Source of the DNA: Pseudomonadota bacterium
GTDB taxonomy: Bacteria; Pseudomonadota; Gammaproteobacteria; Steroidobacterales; Steroidobacteraceae
NCBI GenBank assembly: GCA_025355105.1
Contig: JANYAE010000052.1
Location: 62,001-126,000 of the forward strand
Reading direction: 5' to 3'
Length of the DNA: 64,000 nt
How positions within the stretch are numbered: the first letter of the stretch is position 1; each line of letters begins with the position of its first letter. The notes below the pieces were generated by a model. It ran no database searches, had not been told where the DNA came from, and saw only the letters and a list, made by a program, of their open reading frames with translations. The position numbers and the translations under genes were made by a program. Positions 29,543 to 34,898 of this stretch are shown piece after piece.

Positions 29543-30835
29543 TCAGCGTCCGAGCCGGTCGCGGATCCGTCCGTAGCTGACGCCGGCCGCGACCCCGATG
29601 CGCCAAAATCGGTGGAATCGCAGCCGTGGCACCGGTGTCACCGGCAGGGCAAGCGATTCGAGCGGCTCGCCAGCCGCCGCGGCCGCGAGTTGCGCGCCCA
29701 TCGCGGTTCCGAACGCGACACCGCGCCCGCTGTAGCCGAGCCCGATGAATAGGCCAGGTGCCGGCGCGTGGAAGCGCGGATAGAAATCGGGCGTCAGCGC
29801 GAACTGGCCGTTCCACCAGTGCGTCCATTCGACGGCTGCGAGCGCGGGCCACAGCCTCTCGGCGTAGCGCACCAGGTGCCCGTAGTGGGCGCGCGCCGCG
29901 TCGCTGTGCTGGCGGCCGCGGCCGCCCATCAGCAGCCGCCCGTCGGCATCGCGGCGGTAGTACACGGTGATGTTGCCCGCCTCGTACACGACGCAACCGC
30001 CGGCCAGCAGCGCGTCGCAGAGCGGTGATGGCAGCGGTGTCGTGGCGATGATCGAGCTGTAGATCGGCACGATGCTCGTCCGCAGTCCCGGCCACAGGTT
30101 GTCGCTGTAGCCGTCGGTGGCGAGCACGACGCGATCGGCGCGCACTACGCCACCCGGCGTCGTCACGCGCCAGCCCGTACCGTCGCGCTCCAGCCGCAGC
30201 GCGGGCGTGGCGGAGTGGATCGTGGCGCCGAGTCGCGATGCCGCGGCGGCCAAGCCGCGCGCGAGGCTGAGCGGATTGACGGCGCCACCGCGCGCGTCGA
30301 AGGTCGCGCCGACGTAGCGGTCGGTTCCGGTCACGGCCGCGACTCTGGGCGCGTCCCAGAATTCCACGGCGACGCCGCGCCGCGCCCACTGCGCGACGGA
30401 CGCGCGTAGCGTCGAACAGTGCTGCTCTCGGTAGGCGGCGCGTAGCGTGCCAGTGCGTCGTGCCTCGCAGTCGATGCCGTGCCGCGCGATCAGCTCGAAC
30501 AGCAAGTCCGGCGCGCCGCCGGCCAGTCGCACAAGCTGCGGGCCGTGCAGCGGTCCCAGCGCGCGCTCGACGTCATCCGGCTCGTGTTTGAGACCGGCGT
30601 TGACCTGGCCGCCGTTGCGTCCGGCGGCGCCCCAGCCCGGTTCGCGCGCCTCGAGCAACGCGACGCGCCGACCGCGCTCGGCGAGGTGCAGCGCAGCCGA
30701 GAGCCCGGTGTAACCGCCGCCGACGACTACGACTTCCACCCGCAGTGCGCCGCCGAGCGGAGCGGTCGGCACGGCTGGCGTCGCGGTGAGCGTATAGAGG
30801 CAGCGCGGAGCGTCGAGTTCGAGAGCGGTCGGCAC
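29543..30835 (-). CDS. FAD-dependent amine/amino-acid oxidoreductase (PuuB-like)
   Basis: 430-residue DAO-family flavoprotein: VVVVGGGYTGLSAALHLAERG binds FAD, GWGAAGRNGGQVNAG follows, and the end has GLFIGLGYSGRGVAFGTAMG. The arrangement is like gamma-glutamylputrescine oxidase and N-methyl-amino-acid oxidases, oxidising a C-N bond in the cytoplasm with release of an aldehyde and amine. The start is a GTG six bases after the MFS transporter stop, so transporter and oxidase form one operon: uptake of a small amine followed by its oxidation. This operon is divergent from the TTQ amine dehydrogenase genes, which supports an amine substrate. Confidence 0.9.
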   Translation of the reverse strand: MPTALELDAPRCLYTLTATPAVPTAPLGGALRVEVVVVGGGYTGLSAALHLAERGRRVALLEAREPGWGAAGRNGGQVNAGLKHEPDDVERALGPLHGPQLVRLAGGAPDLLFELIARHGIDCEARRTGTLRAAYREQHCSTLRASVAQWARRGVAVEFWDAPRVAAVTGTDRYVGATFDARGGAVNPLSLARGLAAAASRLGATIHSATPALRLERDGTGWRVTTPGGVVRADRVVLATDGYSDNLWPGLRTSIVPIYSSIIATTPLPSPLCDALLAGGCVVYEAGNITVYYRRDADGRLLMGGRGRQHSDAARAHYGHLVRYAERLWPALAAVEWTHWWNGQFALTPDFYPRFHAPAPGLFIGLGYSGRGVAFGTAMGAQLAAAAAGEPLESLALPVTPVPRLRFHRFWRIGVAAGVSYGRIRDRLGR

Positions 30836-30841
30836 GACGTG

Positions 30842-32122
30842 TCAGGTCCAGCGCCGGCGCACGGCGAGCGTCGACAGCACCGCCGCCACCATCGCGCTCA
30901 CAACCAGCAACACCAGGGTACGTCCGTAGTTGCCGGTCAGGTCGAACACCCAGCCGGCTGCGATGCCGGACAGCCACAGCGTGCCAAGCTCGACGCAGTA
31001 CCAGACGCTGTAGGCGTGGTCGACATTGACGTGCGGAAAACGCGCGCGCATGAGCTTGACGAAGAAAATGTCGGAACCACCGATCATGATGCCGAAGCAG
31101 ACAGCGTGGGTCACCAGCGCGGCGACGGACGGCGTGCGGCTCACGGCCAGCATTGCGAGCGCGCCGGCGAGCAGCATCGCATGCATCAACACGCCAACGC
31201 GCCCGAGCGGCCAGCGGTCCACGGCCCAGCCCGTGGCGAGGCCGCCGAGCGCGGCGAAGCCCGCGGTCGAGCCGAGCACGATCGAGGTCAGCTCGCCGCT
31301 GTAGCCGGCACCCTGGACGATCGCCGCCTGGTGCGCGAGGACGCCACCGTAGGTCATGTAGAAAAAGAGCGTGGCCGACGCGATCAGCCAGAACAGCGGC
31401 GAGCGCAGCAGATCGCCGAGCGTGCCCGCCGGCTCGGCCACGGCCACGGCGCCGGCGACCGGACGATCGCCGACCGCCGCCGCCGGCGTGGCGGGCAGCG
31501 GGTCGCCGTCCGCAGCAAGGCCGAGCTCGGCCGGCGAGCGGATGCGCTGCACCCAGAGGATCGGGCCGAGCGCGAATGCCAGCAGCGCGACGCCGAGCGC
31601 GATGCAGGCGCCGCGCCAGCCGAAGCTGCGGATGATCGCTTCGGTGACCGGCGCGAGCACCATGCCGCCGACGTGCCAGCCGGCCCAGGCCATGCCGAGC
31701 GCGAGACCGTAGCGCCTCGAGAACCAGCGCGCAATGATGACCGGGATCGTGACCGCGAACATGATCTTGCCGAAGCCCATCGCGGCGCGCAGCAGGTACA
31801 TTTCGGTCAGCGTCGACACGCTCGCGAGCATCAGCACGCACAGTGCCTCGAGGACGATGCCGATCGCGAGCAGCCGTGTGACCCCGAAGCGCCGCATCGC
31901 GAGGCCGCCGATGACCAGCAGCGGCGCGCTCAGCCAGAAGGCCGAGACGATGCCGCCCGTGGCTGCGCGGCTCCAGCCGAATTCGTCGGTGAGCGGCTTG
32001 ACGAACAGCGCGAAGCAGTAGAGGCCGCCGCCGTAGACGAAGAAGCCGGCGAAAAACAGCGCAGCGAGCACCTTCCAGCCGTAGTACAGGCCGGCTGCGG
32101 CGGAATCGATGTTCGATTTCAT
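30842..32122 (-). CDS. MFS transporter (oxalate/formate or monocarboxylate type)
   Basis: 426-residue transporter with twelve predicted membrane segments. The first begins GWKVLAALFFAGFFVYGGGLYCF, an opening seen in the OFA/MCT branch (MFS_1) of the major facilitator superfamily; a central loop of ~30 residues precedes segment 7. It would be a proton-coupled carrier of an organic anion or zwitterion. The ATG at 32122 is chosen; an in-frame ATG 54 bases upstream would add a charged leader. It is the first gene of an operon with the FAD oxidoreductase and is divergent from the amine dehydrogenase operon. Confidence 0.88.
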   Translation of the reverse strand: MKSNIDSAAAGLYYGWKVLAALFFAGFFVYGGGLYCFALFVKPLTDEFGWSRAATGGIVSAFWLSAPLLVIGGLAMRRFGVTRLLAIGIVLEALCVLMLASVSTLTEMYLLRAAMGFGKIMFAVTIPVIIARWFSRRYGLALGMAWAGWHVGGMVLAPVTEAIIRSFGWRGACIALGVALLAFALGPILWVQRIRSPAELGLAADGDPLPATPAAAVGDRPVAGAVAVAEPAGTLGDLLRSPLFWLIASATLFFYMTYGGVLAHQAAIVQGAGYSGELTSIVLGSTAGFAALGGLATGWAVDRWPLGRVGVLMHAMLLAGALAMLAVSRTPSVAALVTHAVCFGIMIGGSDIFFVKLMRARFPHVNVDHAYSVWYCVELGTLWLSGIAAGWVFDLTGNYGRTLVLLVVSAMVAAVLSTLAVRRRWT

Positions 32123-32273
32123 ATGGTCATCGAGTATCGCGTGCCCACAGATGCCGGTCCATCTGGACGGTTGCACCGCTGGGTGCGGTGTGCGTCCGAC
32201 GGCCGGCGCACGCTGCCATCAGCTGCCCGCCTGTGGCACACTGGGGTGGCACGTCGAGGGGGAGAAACACTTC

Positions 32274-33419
32274 ATGTGGCAGAGAGCAACGGGCGCCTGT
32301 CTTGCGCTGCTGACGGCATGGGCCGCGGGCGCTGCCGTGCCGCCGCCACTGCCGGCCGAGCACCTGGGACTCGCGACGCTACCCGCCGCCTCGCCGCACT
32401 GGGTGTGGGTGTTCGACGAGTCGAACAACAACGAAACCGACATGCGGCTCTATCTGTGGGACGCCGACGCGCGTCGCCAGCTCGGCCAGATAGACATCGG
32501 CTTCTGGGCGGGGGTTGCGATGTCGCCGGATGGCCGCACCACGGCGGTCGCGACCAGCTATTTCTCCCGCGGCAGCCACGGCACCCGGACCGACGTGCTC
32601 GAGCTGACCGACAATTCGACGCTGTCGATCACCGCCGAGATCGTGCTGCCGTCGAGGCACGCGCAGACGATTCCGCTGCACAACATCGCATTCAGCGGCG
32701 ACGGGCGCCTTGTCTACGTCACGAATCTGTCGCCCGCGACCTCCTACACGGTCGTCGACCTGGCGAAGAAGGCCGTCGTCGGCGAGGTGGACACCGACGG
32801 CTGCGTGCTGGTGCTTCCCTCGCGCCAGCGGAGCGTGTCGTCGCTGTGCGAGACCGGCCGCCTGCTGACGGTACAGCTCGACGACAGCGGCCACGAGAGT
32901 TCACGCAAGATGTCCGCGCCGTTCTTCAGCGTCGACAAGGACCCGATCTTCATCCAGGGCGTGCCAACCTCCAACGGCCTGCTGTTTCTGTCGTTCCTCG
33001 GCGATGTCTACGGCGTGGACCTGTCCGCTGCGGAACCGGCGTTCGCGCCGGTGTGGGCGACGATGAGCGCGGCGGAGCGCGGCAAGTGGCGGCCCGGCGG
33101 CGCGCAGGTCGTGGCGCTGCACCGCAAGACGGGTCGGCTGTTCCTGCAGGTGCACAAGGGCGGCGACGGCTCGCACAAGGTCACGGGCGATGAGGTCTGG
33201 GTCTACGACGGCGCCGCGCACCGGCGCGTCGCGCGGTGGCCGATCGACGTCAAGAAGTACAGCGGCGTCCAGGCCATCCAGGTCTCACAGGATGACAAGC
33301 CGTTGCTGTTCCTGCTGACGGAAACGTCGGATCTGCTGGTCCTCGACGCGATGACCGGGCGATTCTTGTATGCCGAACCGAAACTGGGGCAGTCATCGTG
33401 GTATCTCCTCAACCCATAA
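32274..33419 (+). CDS. mauB: TTQ amine dehydrogenase, large (alpha) subunit, MauB-like
   Basis: 381-residue exported protein resembling the heavy subunit of methylamine/aromatic amine dehydrogenase. A signal peptide spans residues ~5-21 (CLALLTAWAAGAAV). The seven-bladed propeller is seen in WVFDESNNNETDMRLYL, VAMSPDGRTTAVATSYFSRG, RTDVLELTDNSTLSI, VTNLSPATSYTVVDL, VDKDPIFIQGVP and DEVWVYDGAAHRRVARW. It scaffolds the catalytic light subunit in a periplasmic alpha2-beta2 enzyme that oxidises primary amines to aldehyde and ammonia. GGGGAG precedes the ATG. The next gene overlaps its stop, as expected for paired subunits. Confidence 0.9.
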   Translation: MWQRATGACLALLTAWAAGAAVPPPLPAEHLGLATLPAASPHWVWVFDESNNNETDMRLYLWDADARRQLGQIDIGFWAGVAMSPDGRTTAVATSYFSRGSHGTRTDVLELTDNSTLSITAEIVLPSRHAQTIPLHNIAFSGDGRLVYVTNLSPATSYTVVDLAKKAVVGEVDTDGCVLVLPSRQRSVSSLCETGRLLTVQLDDSGHESSRKMSAPFFSVDKDPIFIQGVPTSNGLLFLSFLGDVYGVDLSAAEPAFAPVWATMSAAERGKWRPGGAQVVALHRKTGRLFLQVHKGGDGSHKVTGDEVWVYDGAAHRRVARWPIDVKKYSGVQAIQVSQDDKPLLFLLTETSDLLVLDAMTGRFLYAEPKLGQSSWYLLNP

Positions 33420-33946
33420 CGATGCAGCAGCGCCTCGACCACTGGGCCGAGCGCGTTTCCCGAGGCGTCGCGCGGCGCACCTCGCGTCGTGGCTTCCTGT
33501 CAGCCTTCGGCCGCACGCTGACCGGTGTCGCGCTGTTGCCGCTGCTGCCGGTCATGCGTGGCTCGCAGGCGCTGGCCGCGGAACCGGCCGCGAAAGCGGC
33601 ATCGACCGATCCGAACGCCTGCGAGTACTGGAAGTACTGCGCGATCGACGGCTTCCTCTGCGGCTGCTGCGGTGGCAGCTCCTCGACCTGCCCGCCGGGC
33701 ACGCAGCAGTCGCCGATCACCTGGATCGGTACCTGTCACAACCCGGCCGACGGGCGTGACTACATCATGTCGTACAACGACTGCTGCGGTAAGACCAGTT
33801 GCGGCAGCTGTTTCTGCAACCGCAACGAGGGCGAACGCCCGATGTACCGGATGTCACTTAACAACGACGTCAATTGGTGCATGGCGAACGACAATCCGAA
33901 CTATCACTGTTCGGTGTCGGTTGTCCTGGGGGTTGCCGGCAAGTGA
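33398..33946 (+). CDS. mauA: TTQ amine dehydrogenase, light (beta) subunit, MauA-like
   Basis: 182-residue catalytic subunit that carries tryptophan tryptophylquinone. A twin-arginine signal (TSRRGFLSAFG) lies at ~28-38. Matching it by eye with the Paracoccus chain, the two tryptophans that cross-link are Trp109 (TWIGTCHNP) and Trp160 (DVNWCMAND); catalytic Asp84 (CAIDG), Asp128 (YNDCC) and Tyr169 (NYHC) are present. The mature part has 14 cysteines instead of the usual 12; the extra pair (Cys91, Cys135) could make a seventh disulfide. The start is a GTG overlapping mauB with GGGGC before it; an in-frame ATG at 33422 is the alternative. No mauD, mauE or mauG is adjacent. Confidence 0.9.
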   Translation: MVSPQPITMQQRLDHWAERVSRGVARRTSRRGFLSAFGRTLTGVALLPLLPVMRGSQALAAEPAAKAASTDPNACEYWKYCAIDGFLCGCCGGSSSTCPPGTQQSPITWIGTCHNPADGRDYIMSYNDCCGKTSCGSCFCNRNEGERPMYRMSLNNDVNWCMANDNPNYHCSVSVVLGVAGK

Positions 33947-34443
33947 GCCCGCGGGGCCGGCCGCGCGCACCCGGCCTCGCACTGCTGGCCACCGCTGGCG
34001 TGATGCTCGTGCTGATGGCGCGCGCCGATGAGGTGCCGCGCTTTCCCGAGGGCGCCGCGGTCTTCCAGGCGAACTGCGCCGTCTGCCATCGCGCCACCGG
34101 TGCCGGCACGCCCGGCCTCGCGCCGCCGGTCACGCAGTACCCACCCCGCTTCATCGCGACGCCGGAGGGTCGGCGCCAGCTGGCGCTAACCGTGCTGTTC
34201 GGAATGTTCGGCGACATCGTGGTCGCCGAGCGGCACTACAACTTCAAGATGCCGGATTTTGTGCGCCTCGATGACGCTACGCTCGCGGCGACGCTCAACT
34301 TCGTGGTGTTCGATCTCGGCCACGCGCCGGCGGAGGCTGCGCCGCTGACCGTGTCGGATATCGCCGCCGAGCGGCCGCGAGCGCTTGACGGCAGCGCAGT
34401 ACTGGCCCATCGCGGCGAGGTCGTCGCCCAGCTCGCGCCGTGA
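33943..34443 (+). CDS. Monoheme c-type cytochrome in the amine dehydrogenase operon
   Basis: 166-residue exported cytochrome c. The start is a GTG overlapping the light-subunit stop (GTGA) with a GGGGG ribosome site upstream. A signal segment (ALLATAGVMLVLMARA) leads to CAVCH (Cys45, Cys48, His49), then a methionine in NFKMPDFVRL that may be the sixth heme ligand. Only one CxxCH is present, so it is not MauG. Its place directly after the light subunit suggests it accepts electrons from TTQ, replacing amicyanin or cytochrome c-551i. Confidence 0.88.
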   Translation: MSPRGRPRAPGLALLATAGVMLVLMARADEVPRFPEGAAVFQANCAVCHRATGAGTPGLAPPVTQYPPRFIATPEGRRQLALTVLFGMFGDIVVAERHYNFKMPDFVRLDDATLAATLNFVVFDLGHAPAEAAPLTVSDIAAERPRALDGSAVLAHRGEVVAQLAP

Positions 34444-34898
34444 CGCGGGGCTGCGGTGCCCGTGCGCCGTTCGCCGCCGCGCTGCTGGCGGCGACCTTCG
34501 CCGCCGGCGCCATCGAGCGACCTGAGTCCTCAAGCCCCGCGCAGAATTACCTGCTGTTTTGTGGCGGTTGCCACGGTGTCGCGGGCAGCGGGGTGCCGCA
34601 CCGGGTGCCCGCGCTCAACGCCACGGTCGGTCGCTTCCTGCGGGTGGAAGGCGGCCGCGAGCTATTGCTGCGCTTCCCGGGTGTCGCCAACTCGCAGCTG
34701 TCGGATGGCGCGCTCGCGCAAGTCATGAACCTGTGCGTGACGCGCTTCGGCGGTGCGGACCGGCCGGCGGACCTGCGGCCCTACACGGCCGAGGAGGTGC
34801 ACGCCGCGCGCCAGAGCCCGCAGCTCAACATCAAGCGCCACCGCGCCGAGCTGATGCTGCGCGCCGGCCTCCCGCCCGACGAGGCCGCCGACTATTGA
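34440..34898 (+). CDS. Second monoheme c-type cytochrome of the amine dehydrogenase operon
   Basis: 152-residue exported protein with a signal (AAALLAATFAAGA) and one heme site CGGCH (Cys41, Cys44, His45). The C-terminal ~60 residues are polar and end RAELMLRAGLPPDEAADY. It starts with a GTG that overlaps the previous stop, so four genes (large subunit, light subunit, two cytochromes) are translationally coupled. It could be a second electron carrier or a subunit bridging to a membrane oxidase. Again one CxxCH only, so not a diheme MauG. Confidence 0.85.
   Translation: MTRGCGARAPFAAALLAATFAAGAIERPESSSPAQNYLLFCGGCHGVAGSGVPHRVPALNATVGRFLRVEGGRELLLRFPGVANSQLSDGALAQVMNLCVTRFGGADRPADLRPYTAEEVHAARQSPQLNIKRHRAELMLRAGLPPDEAADY

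Follow-up and report, generated by a model that had tools for sequence, protein, structure and literature searches.

Aromatic amine dehydrogenase operon without adjacent maturation genes

The operon described here is best explained, at a probability of about 0.68, as an aromatic amine dehydrogenase (aau) operon that has lost mauE-mauD, is served in trans by a pair encoded upstream, and forms TTQ without MauG, likeliest through the second of two mono-heme cytochromes c (cyt2). According to this model, an ancestral order of heavy-mauE-mauD-light-cyt1-cyt2 would have been reduced by loss of the mauE-mauD pair. The light subunit would be exported via a twin-arginine leader, and a paralogous aau cluster located 47 kb upstream would supply, in trans, the MauE and MauD that aid its disulfide-rich fold. 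TTQ completion would then take place in the periplasm and would not involve MauG. The likeliest agent of this completion would be cyt2, a mono-heme protein that lacks a sixth heme ligand and is encoded behind the light subunit in aau-type clusters, with the first cytochrome (cyt1), which has kept its Met ligand, carrying electrons away. As read from the sequences, the fixed points of this model are the operon and its enzyme family, the missing genes, the presence of mauE-mauD elsewhere in the genome, the lack of MauG in aau loci, and the co-occurrence of cyt2 with the enzyme together with the loss of its Met ligand; service of this enzyme by the distant pair, formation of TTQ, and a part for cyt2 in that formation are inferred.

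Gene order and enzyme family

The genes for the heavy subunit, the light subunit, and the two cytochromes lie back to back on one strand of the window (the whole 64,000-nucleotide stretch that was analyzed, C58:62001-126000; Table 1), with overlaps of 4 bases between light and cyt1 and between cyt1 and cyt2. A previous sequence-only reading of this DNA described the two subunit genes as adjacent and overlapping; the adjacency stands, and the overlap, of 22 bases, exists only with the first GTG as the start of the light gene, there being a gap of 2 bases if the ATG is used. The same reading was correct in stating that mauE, mauD, and mauG are absent beside the subunit genes and that only two single-heme cytochromes follow the light gene: profiles for MauE (PF07291), MauD (TIGR02661), and the MauG superfamily (PF03150) gave no own-genome match within the window, and the genes downstream are cyt1 and cyt2.

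Table 1. Genes of the operon, in window positions.
Product	Position	Strand	Remarks
Heavy (large) subunit, aromatic-amine-dehydrogenase-type TTQ enzyme	32274..33419	+	381 aa; PF06433 2.4e-41
Light (small) subunit	33398..33946	+	PF02975 1.1e-52; start GTG 33398 or ATG 33422
cyt1, mono-heme cytochrome c	33943..34443	+	CxxCH; PF00034 1.2e-7 (slightly longer frame scored)
cyt2, mono-heme cytochrome c	34440..34898	+	one CxxCH; PF00034 only 0.011

By sequence comparison, the enzyme belongs to the aromatic amine dehydrogenase (AADH) type and is not a methylamine dehydrogenase (MADH). Matches of the heavy subunit to PF06433 and of the light subunit to PF02975 are both above the gathering score. The best solved relative of the heavy subunit is an AADH (2h3x, 6.4e-48, versus 2e-35 for MADH; 166.9 bits for AADH versus 125.8 bits for MADH), and the light subunit scores 182.5 bits with AADH (2agl; 6.6e-53 for 2agl_D) versus 159.6 (3c75) and 126.1 (3l4m). 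Both subunits score below the MADH equivalog cut-offs: the heavy subunit reaches 153.1 bits of the 454.45 set for TIGR02658, and the light subunit 179.1 bits of the 196.85 set for TIGR02659, a model under which the light subunit of Paracoccus denitrificans scores 399. The heavy subunit has a signal-like stretch at its N-terminus and the light subunit, by inspection, a twin-arginine leader (SRRGFLSAFG). In its mature part (residues 67-180), the light subunit aligns without gaps to 2agl_D, such that W109, W160, and the cysteine framework line up, and these two TTQ tryptophans are invariant among the 13 light subunits compared. The TTQ residues that the sequence-only reading had noted are thus in place, and the enzyme should form TTQ from its own tryptophans. 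In a tree of light subunits, built after removal of 15 short or duplicate rows out of 129, the window type is a clade of 28 heavy-light operons whose sister group is a Burkholderiaceae type with the order heavy-E-D-light. The only hint at an aromatic amine substrate is a PaaK gene near the paralogous cluster.

The operon resembles aau clusters of the order heavy-mauE-mauD-light-cyt(-cyt) in that both subunits are closest to AADH, one or two mono-heme cytochromes stand behind the light gene, and no mauG is present in the cluster; it differs in that mauE-mauD is not between the subunits and the sole MauD is encoded in another cluster. With the mau system of P. denitrificans it shares homologous heavy and light subunits and the TTQ residues, and MauE and MauD accompany both types. 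Unlike that system, the aau-type loci surveyed contain, by profile, no mauF, amicyanin, mauJ, mauG, mauM, or mauN.

MauE and MauD encoded elsewhere in the genome

The genome encodes two light subunits, one MauD, and one strong MauE. Its sole MauD (C58:46984; 218 bits, 1.1e-64 with TIGR02661) and its sole strong MauE (C58:46457; 87.8 bits, 2.2e-24 with PF07291) both belong to the paralogous cluster, which is outside the window and has the canonical order heavy-mauE-mauD-light-cyt2; three further PF07291 matches in the genome are weak, at 2e-6 to 4e-5, and two of these barely exceed the cut-off. The idea that mauE and mauD are missing from the genome is rejected on these grounds. The sequence-only reading had suggested that maturation genes might lie elsewhere, which is right for mauD and mauE; of the three genes (mauD, mauE, and mauG) whose discovery elsewhere in the genome it regarded as refuting its proposal, two have been found.

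All 16 family genomes with a window-type light subunit encode MauD. The gene is immediately upstream of the heavy gene in 2 (G003, G013), within a paralogous heavy-E-D-light cluster in 6 (G000, G006, G009, G010, G012, G016), in a solo mauE-mauD pair in 7 (G001, G004, G005, G008, G011, G014, G027), and both in a paralogous cluster and as a solo pair in 1 (G007). No heavy or light gene was detected by tblastn in 14 kb around any solo pair. Seven of the eight solo loci have flanking gene families in common with one of eight heavy-E-D-light loci compared, the exception being that of G001, which has no flank in common with any of them. In a quick tree of MauD, with SH-aLRT support only, solo MauDs nest with heavy-E-D-light MauDs of the same genus (support of 100 for G014 with G006/G009 and of 85 for G004/G005/G008 with G000). 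Sister species have lost the second dehydrogenase yet kept a solo mauE-mauD, mostly among the same neighbors. More broadly, each of the 33 enzyme genomes encodes MauD, none of 9 relatives without the enzyme does, and MauE was found in all 23 enzyme genomes searched. In G001, heavy-light, mauE-mauD, and cyt1-cyt2 are scattered over three contigs, yet none of them has been lost. In G027, the heavy gene is not seen because both light genes are at contig ends. Since the sole MauD and the strong MauE of the genome are in the upstream cluster and sister species carry solo pairs, these helpers probably act in trans on the window enzyme.

Absence of MauG from aau-type loci

None of 83 aau-type loci carries a MauG-like gene, and all 3 mau-type loci do (of 558 confirmed stretches, the best 80 were kept). 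As mauG is absent from aau-type loci generally, its absence is not special to the window operon, and the notion that this operon alone lacks it is rejected; the sequence-only reading, which held mauG to be usual in known mau/aau clusters, was right for the mau type (methylamine dehydrogenase) and mistaken for the aau type. A study of the Alcaligenes aau genes is likewise said to have described a cluster without mauG. The reported lack of mauG applies to the operon itself, but the genome does encode two MauG-superfamily (PF03150) proteins of other subtypes, one a Met-type peroxidase and the other MbnH-like.

Among the 33 enzyme genomes, 25 gave a MauG-superfamily match in at least one search, and 8 (G001, G003, G013, G022, G027, G028, G117, and G249, two of them single contigs) gave none with PF03150, P. 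denitrificans MauG, or TIGR03791. PF03150 alone had no match in 11 of the 33. Two PF03150-negative genomes, G006 and G014, carry a distant diheme protein (that of G006 scores 25.0 bits against a cut-off of 25.6), so that an "absent" MauG means one not detected; G318 has a weak TIGR03791 match. The TIGR03791 cut-off was reached in none of the 33 genomes and is rejected as a test for MauG, since P. denitrificans MauG itself attains only 96.8 of the 443.85 bits and the cut-off is therefore not sensitive. G263 and G445 encode, away from their TTQ genes, proteins that share 53% and 60% identity with P. denitrificans MauG. These may belong to other systems, given that MauG relatives also accompany methanethiol oxidase (PMC5739008).

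Distribution and heme ligation of cyt2

All 33 enzyme genomes and none of the 9 relatives without the enzyme encode cyt2. In a phylum-wide sample, in which only the best 9 candidates per genome were scored, the 11 genomes that encode a full light subunit all had cyt2, and 0 of the 387 others did. The aau cluster of Novosphingobium aromaticivorans DSM 12444 has a gene of the cyt2 family behind its light gene, and three mau plasmid records are without one. Such co-occurrence fits an obligate electron acceptor or a structural partner equally well. Of 102 rows entered in a cyt2 alignment (99 of which differ in the last 90 residues), 99 were aligned; a Met heme ligand is missing from 98 of 98 aligned sequences, one further sequence being gapped there, and besides CxxCH there is no His, Met, Lys, Tyr, or Cys column above 65%. 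In cyt1, the Met of the ligand motif YNFKMP is kept without exception by the 70 family members aligned, and cyt1 is the probable electron acceptor. The median spacing from CxxCH to D..N is 41 in cyt2 versus 59 in cyt1, the pattern having matched 91 cyt2 rows and 40 of the 70 cyt1 rows. Relative to Thermus thermophilus cytochrome c552, cyt2 has the same fold but not the His/Met heme ligation, the ~18 residues that hold the Met ligand being absent; at a threshold of 0.01, 54 of 61 family members match PF00034.

The residues of cyt2 that look catalytic, namely an invariant Arg in "GR", an Asn in "LN", and a C-terminal TAEEV..R, recur in cyt1 or Thermus c552, which leaves the missing Met loop as its one distinctive feature. 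A distal catalytic Arg is rejected, as the invariant Arg of "GR" is present in cyt1 and c552 as well. Compared with MauG, a diheme TTQ synthase, cyt2 has one heme and a small cytochrome c fold, and under the hypothesis it would take over the function of MauG. It is the best candidate substitute for MauG, and the suggestion in the sequence-only reading that one of the cytochromes could have taken over maturation is a testable hypothesis that withstands a demanding check: cyt2 accompanies the enzyme in every genome searched and has lost its distal heme ligand. A VIA-align listing for cyt2 has no MauG entry and carries no evidential weight. No publication on cyt2 or on shared mauE/mauD was found in searches of largely open-access literature.

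Alternative routes to TTQ

A serious contender, at somewhat less than even odds, is that cyt2 serves only as obligate electron acceptor or third subunit and that TTQ is completed by a genetically unlinked factor; a general periplasmic oxidase, or dioxygen or peroxide chemistry aided by MauE and MauD, could be imagined in that role. That cyt2 lies in the same operon, is a cytochrome of the c type, and has the Thermus c552 fold agrees with this, as does the acceptor amicyanin found at this place in 2 of 3 mau clusters compared. However, the lack of Met in all 98 aligned sequences is odd for a carrier when cyt1 consistently keeps its own. Where tandem heavy-light pairs adjoin a cluster that has just one cyt2 (L189, L194, L198, and L207), the arrangement suits a shared helper, although a shared carrier would look alike.

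Completion of TTQ by a diheme MauG relative encoded elsewhere is unlikely. The candidate, a Tyr-type protein at C58:140.2-141.4 kb, is on the same contig, ~43 kb downstream of the operon, and has two CxxCH motifs and Tyr at the MauG axial position; moreover, PF03150 genes occur ~21 and ~26 kb from a window-type cluster in G010 and G012. Yet it scores higher with MbnH, its best family (202.6 bits, cut-off 362.85), than with TTQ_mauG (165.6 bits, cut-off 443.85), its neighbors by inspection are a beta-helix cytochrome protein, a diheme cytochrome c, and TonB receptors, and there remain the 8 enzyme genomes negative in all three MauG searches. It is also very improbable that a flavin monooxygenase is responsible. 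In related CTQ chemistry the flavoproteins LodB, GoxB, and QhpG do act in this way (PMC7876137), and the candidate, an FAD monooxygenase behind the upstream cluster, adjoins the upstream-type cluster in G000, G010, and G020. That protein, however, falls in NF006002 and matches aromatic-ring hydroxylase families more weakly, shows no clear signal peptide on inspection, and was detected by tblastn in only L003, L074, L093, and L004 (which overlaps L003) of 38 stretches. Equally improbable is a light subunit that never acquires TTQ and has another role: the operon is without any maturation gene, but the TTQ residues are kept, the light genes of relatives have no internal stop, the window type persists as a clade of 28 operons, and a related AADH contains TTQ, as indicated by PMC7699789 and by solved AADH chains.

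Implications for TTQ biogenesis

Wherever searched, aau-type enzymes are accompanied by genes for heavy, light, MauE, MauD, and cyt2, and among the helpers MauE, MauD, and cyt2 only the last is known to carry a redox metal center. A broader proposal, which we put forward tentatively, is that cyt2, probably five-coordinate, completes TTQ in aau enzymes generally and that helpers can be shared in trans between paralogues; the shared set would then be MauE, MauD, and, in some species, cyt2. A natural test case is offered by species whose helper genes lie apart from those of the enzyme. If cyt2 does form TTQ, a one-heme protein of the small cytochrome fold would replace the two hemes and bis-Fe(IV) state presumed for this chemistry, and cyt2 would be a second TTQ-forming enzyme, unrelated to MauG.

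Enzyme type of the window operon

The operon consists of four contiguous genes, encoding the heavy and light subunits and two mono-heme cytochromes (cyt1 and cyt2), with 4-base overlaps between the light subunit gene and cyt1 and between cyt1 and cyt2. By inspection, the light subunit carries a twin-arginine leader; both TTQ tryptophans are present. Since the best solved relative of the light subunit was aromatic amine dehydrogenase (AADH, 182.5 bits, against at most 159.6 bits for methylamine dehydrogenase, MADH), since the heavy subunit likewise placed AADH ahead of MADH, and since neither subunit reached the NCBIfam MADH equivalog cut-offs, the enzyme is, judged from sequence, of the aau type and not the mau type. 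The FAD oxidoreductase encoded divergently upstream is closest to L-pipecolate oxidase, at a score under the cut-off for that enzyme; its family adjoins the operon in 8 of 9 same-genus loci compared, and the MFS transporter family in 5 of 9.

Features of the window operon and of related loci (L, annotated loci; G, genomes; G000, own genome; C, contigs)
Feature	Location	Strand	Remark
Heavy subunit	window 32274-33419	+	operon gene 1
Light subunit	window, start 33398 or 33422, end 33946	+	operon gene 2
cyt1	window 33943-34443	+	operon gene 3
cyt2	window 34440-34898	+	operon gene 4
FAD oxidoreductase and MFS transporter	window 29543-32176	-	divergent, upstream of operon
PaaK (phenylacetate-CoA ligase)	L003:344-1936 (G000:C58)		over its cut-off
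FAD monooxygenase, NF006002 family	L003:10602-12269		directly behind upstream aau cluster
PaaZ and PaaK	L066:2361-6803		beside solo mauE-mauD of G011
Tyr-type MbnH-like diheme protein	L264:7216-8361 (G000:C58, ~140.2-141.4 kb)		
Distant MauG-superfamily protein, G006	L265:1823-3181		two CxxCH, barely under PF03150 cut-off
Distant MauG-superfamily protein, G014	L266:2-502		cut by contig start
P. denitrificans MauG	L208:10673-11836		96.8 bits; TIGR03791 cut-off 443.85

Maturation genes in the own genome and its relatives

The window corresponds to G000:C58:62001-126000, and the genome encodes a second light subunit (PF02975) at C58:47809. The cluster of this second subunit precedes the window operon by 47 kb and is ordered heavy subunit, MauE, MauD, light subunit and one cytochrome of the cyt2 family; behind these come the FAD monooxygenase and two hydrolases, the first of metallo-beta-lactamase fold and the second of the alpha/beta type. 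This cluster holds the only strong MauE of the genome (PF07291, 2.2e-24; three further matches were weak, two of them barely over the 27-bit cut-off at 29.7 and 29.2 bits) and its single MauD (TIGR02661, 218 bits). The FAD monooxygenase family also adjoins clusters of G010 and G020. Because PaaK lies ~5 kb upstream of the cluster, phenylethylamine is hinted at as substrate of this paralogue, which may feed it into the phenylacetate pathway.

The sequence-only reading had offered, as one of two alternatives, that maturation genes lie elsewhere, and the own-genome profile search bears this out for mauE and mauD and not for mauG: the MauG-superfamily proteins of this genome are a Met-type peroxidase (on C132) and the MbnH-like protein, whose gene adjoins those for TonB receptors and for a cytochrome c protein of the beta-helix kind. 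In flanks of up to 9 kb, many shorter, a P. denitrificans MauG profile matched in none of 83 aau-type loci and did match in mau-type loci L208, L227 and L228. An aau cluster without mauG has reportedly been found in earlier work on Alcaligenes. When 33 enzyme-bearing genomes were searched with PF03150, P. denitrificans MauG and TIGR03791 (each E <= 0.001), 25 were positive in at least one search and 8 in none (G001, G003, G013, G022, G027, G028, G117 and G249), G117 and G249 being single-contig genomes. G006 and G014 encode distant superfamily members despite lacking a PF03150 match, so the profile can miss members; TIGR03791 annotation, given the score of P. denitrificans MauG, overlooks this MauG type. 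On these searches taken together, MauG proper is unlikely as a general answer for aau-type enzymes, and a distant diheme enzyme may act on them. G010 and G012 likewise have PF03150 genes in the vicinity of their window-type clusters.

A light subunit was found in 23 of 60 genomes, own genome included; 16 of these 23 have the window type, and all 16 encode MauD. The mauE-mauD pair lies directly upstream of the heavy gene in G003 and G013, inside a paralogous heavy-mauE-mauD-light-cyt2 cluster in G000, G006, G009, G010, G012 and G016, and alone, with no heavy or light gene within the 14 kb read, in G001, G004, G005, G008, G011, G014 and G027; G007 has a solo pair plus a mauE-mauD-light cluster interrupted by a contig end. 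The heavy gene of G027 was not seen because its light genes sit at contig ends. Flanking gene families are common to 7 of the 8 solo loci and at least one of eight heavy-mauE-mauD-light loci (G001 had none in common with the eight), and solo MauDs fall among same-genus MauDs from such clusters in the MauD tree; the shared flanks and tree placement fit loss of the dehydrogenase genes, with mauE-mauD kept, at least twice. G001 has kept all three groups, each well inside its contig: heavy-light on C39, mauE-mauD on C21 and cyt1-cyt2 on C10.

Origin of the heavy-light architecture

Light-subunit loci were annotated in three sources: the relatives, plasmid records and 80 named genome contigs, these last being the best of 558 confirmed stretches. 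Together they yielded 114 distinct light subunits, of which 74 were aau-type heavy-mauE-mauD-light, 36 heavy-light without the pair between, 3 mau-type and one cut by a contig end. In the tree of these light subunits, the window operon falls in a clade (support 100/94) that comprises 28 heavy-light operons and the contig-cut locus and is sister to the Burkholderiaceae heavy-mauE-mauD-light-cyt1-cyt2 type, and well-supported branches require at least 5 changes of the heavy-light label. The simplest reading of this placement and these changes is that mauE-mauD left the window-type operon once and other operons independently. In four gammaproteobacterial tandem clusters (L189, L194, L198 and L207), a heavy-light pair adjoins a complete heavy-mauE-mauD-light-cyt2 cluster, as if helpers were common to both dehydrogenases.

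Proposed maturation route

Gene content, relatives, co-occurrence and ligand loss come from the sequences; every biochemical step below is one that we infer. The light subunit would be exported by Tat, its disulfides would form with MauE and MauD supplied in trans (MauD is thioredoxin-like and over its equivalog cut-off), and it would assemble with the heavy subunit. The candidate maturation factor cyt2 would then oxidize W109 and W160 to TTQ with peroxide or oxygen, and cyt1 would accept electrons during catalysis.

It is established that both MADH and AADH contain TTQ and that MauG has a role in MADH (PMC7699789 and PMC6405878). In the literature searched, no earlier account was found of two features that appear new: one is that mauE-mauD would be supplied in trans and are selectively retained, and the other is the constant company that the ligand-deficient cyt2 keeps with aau-type enzymes.
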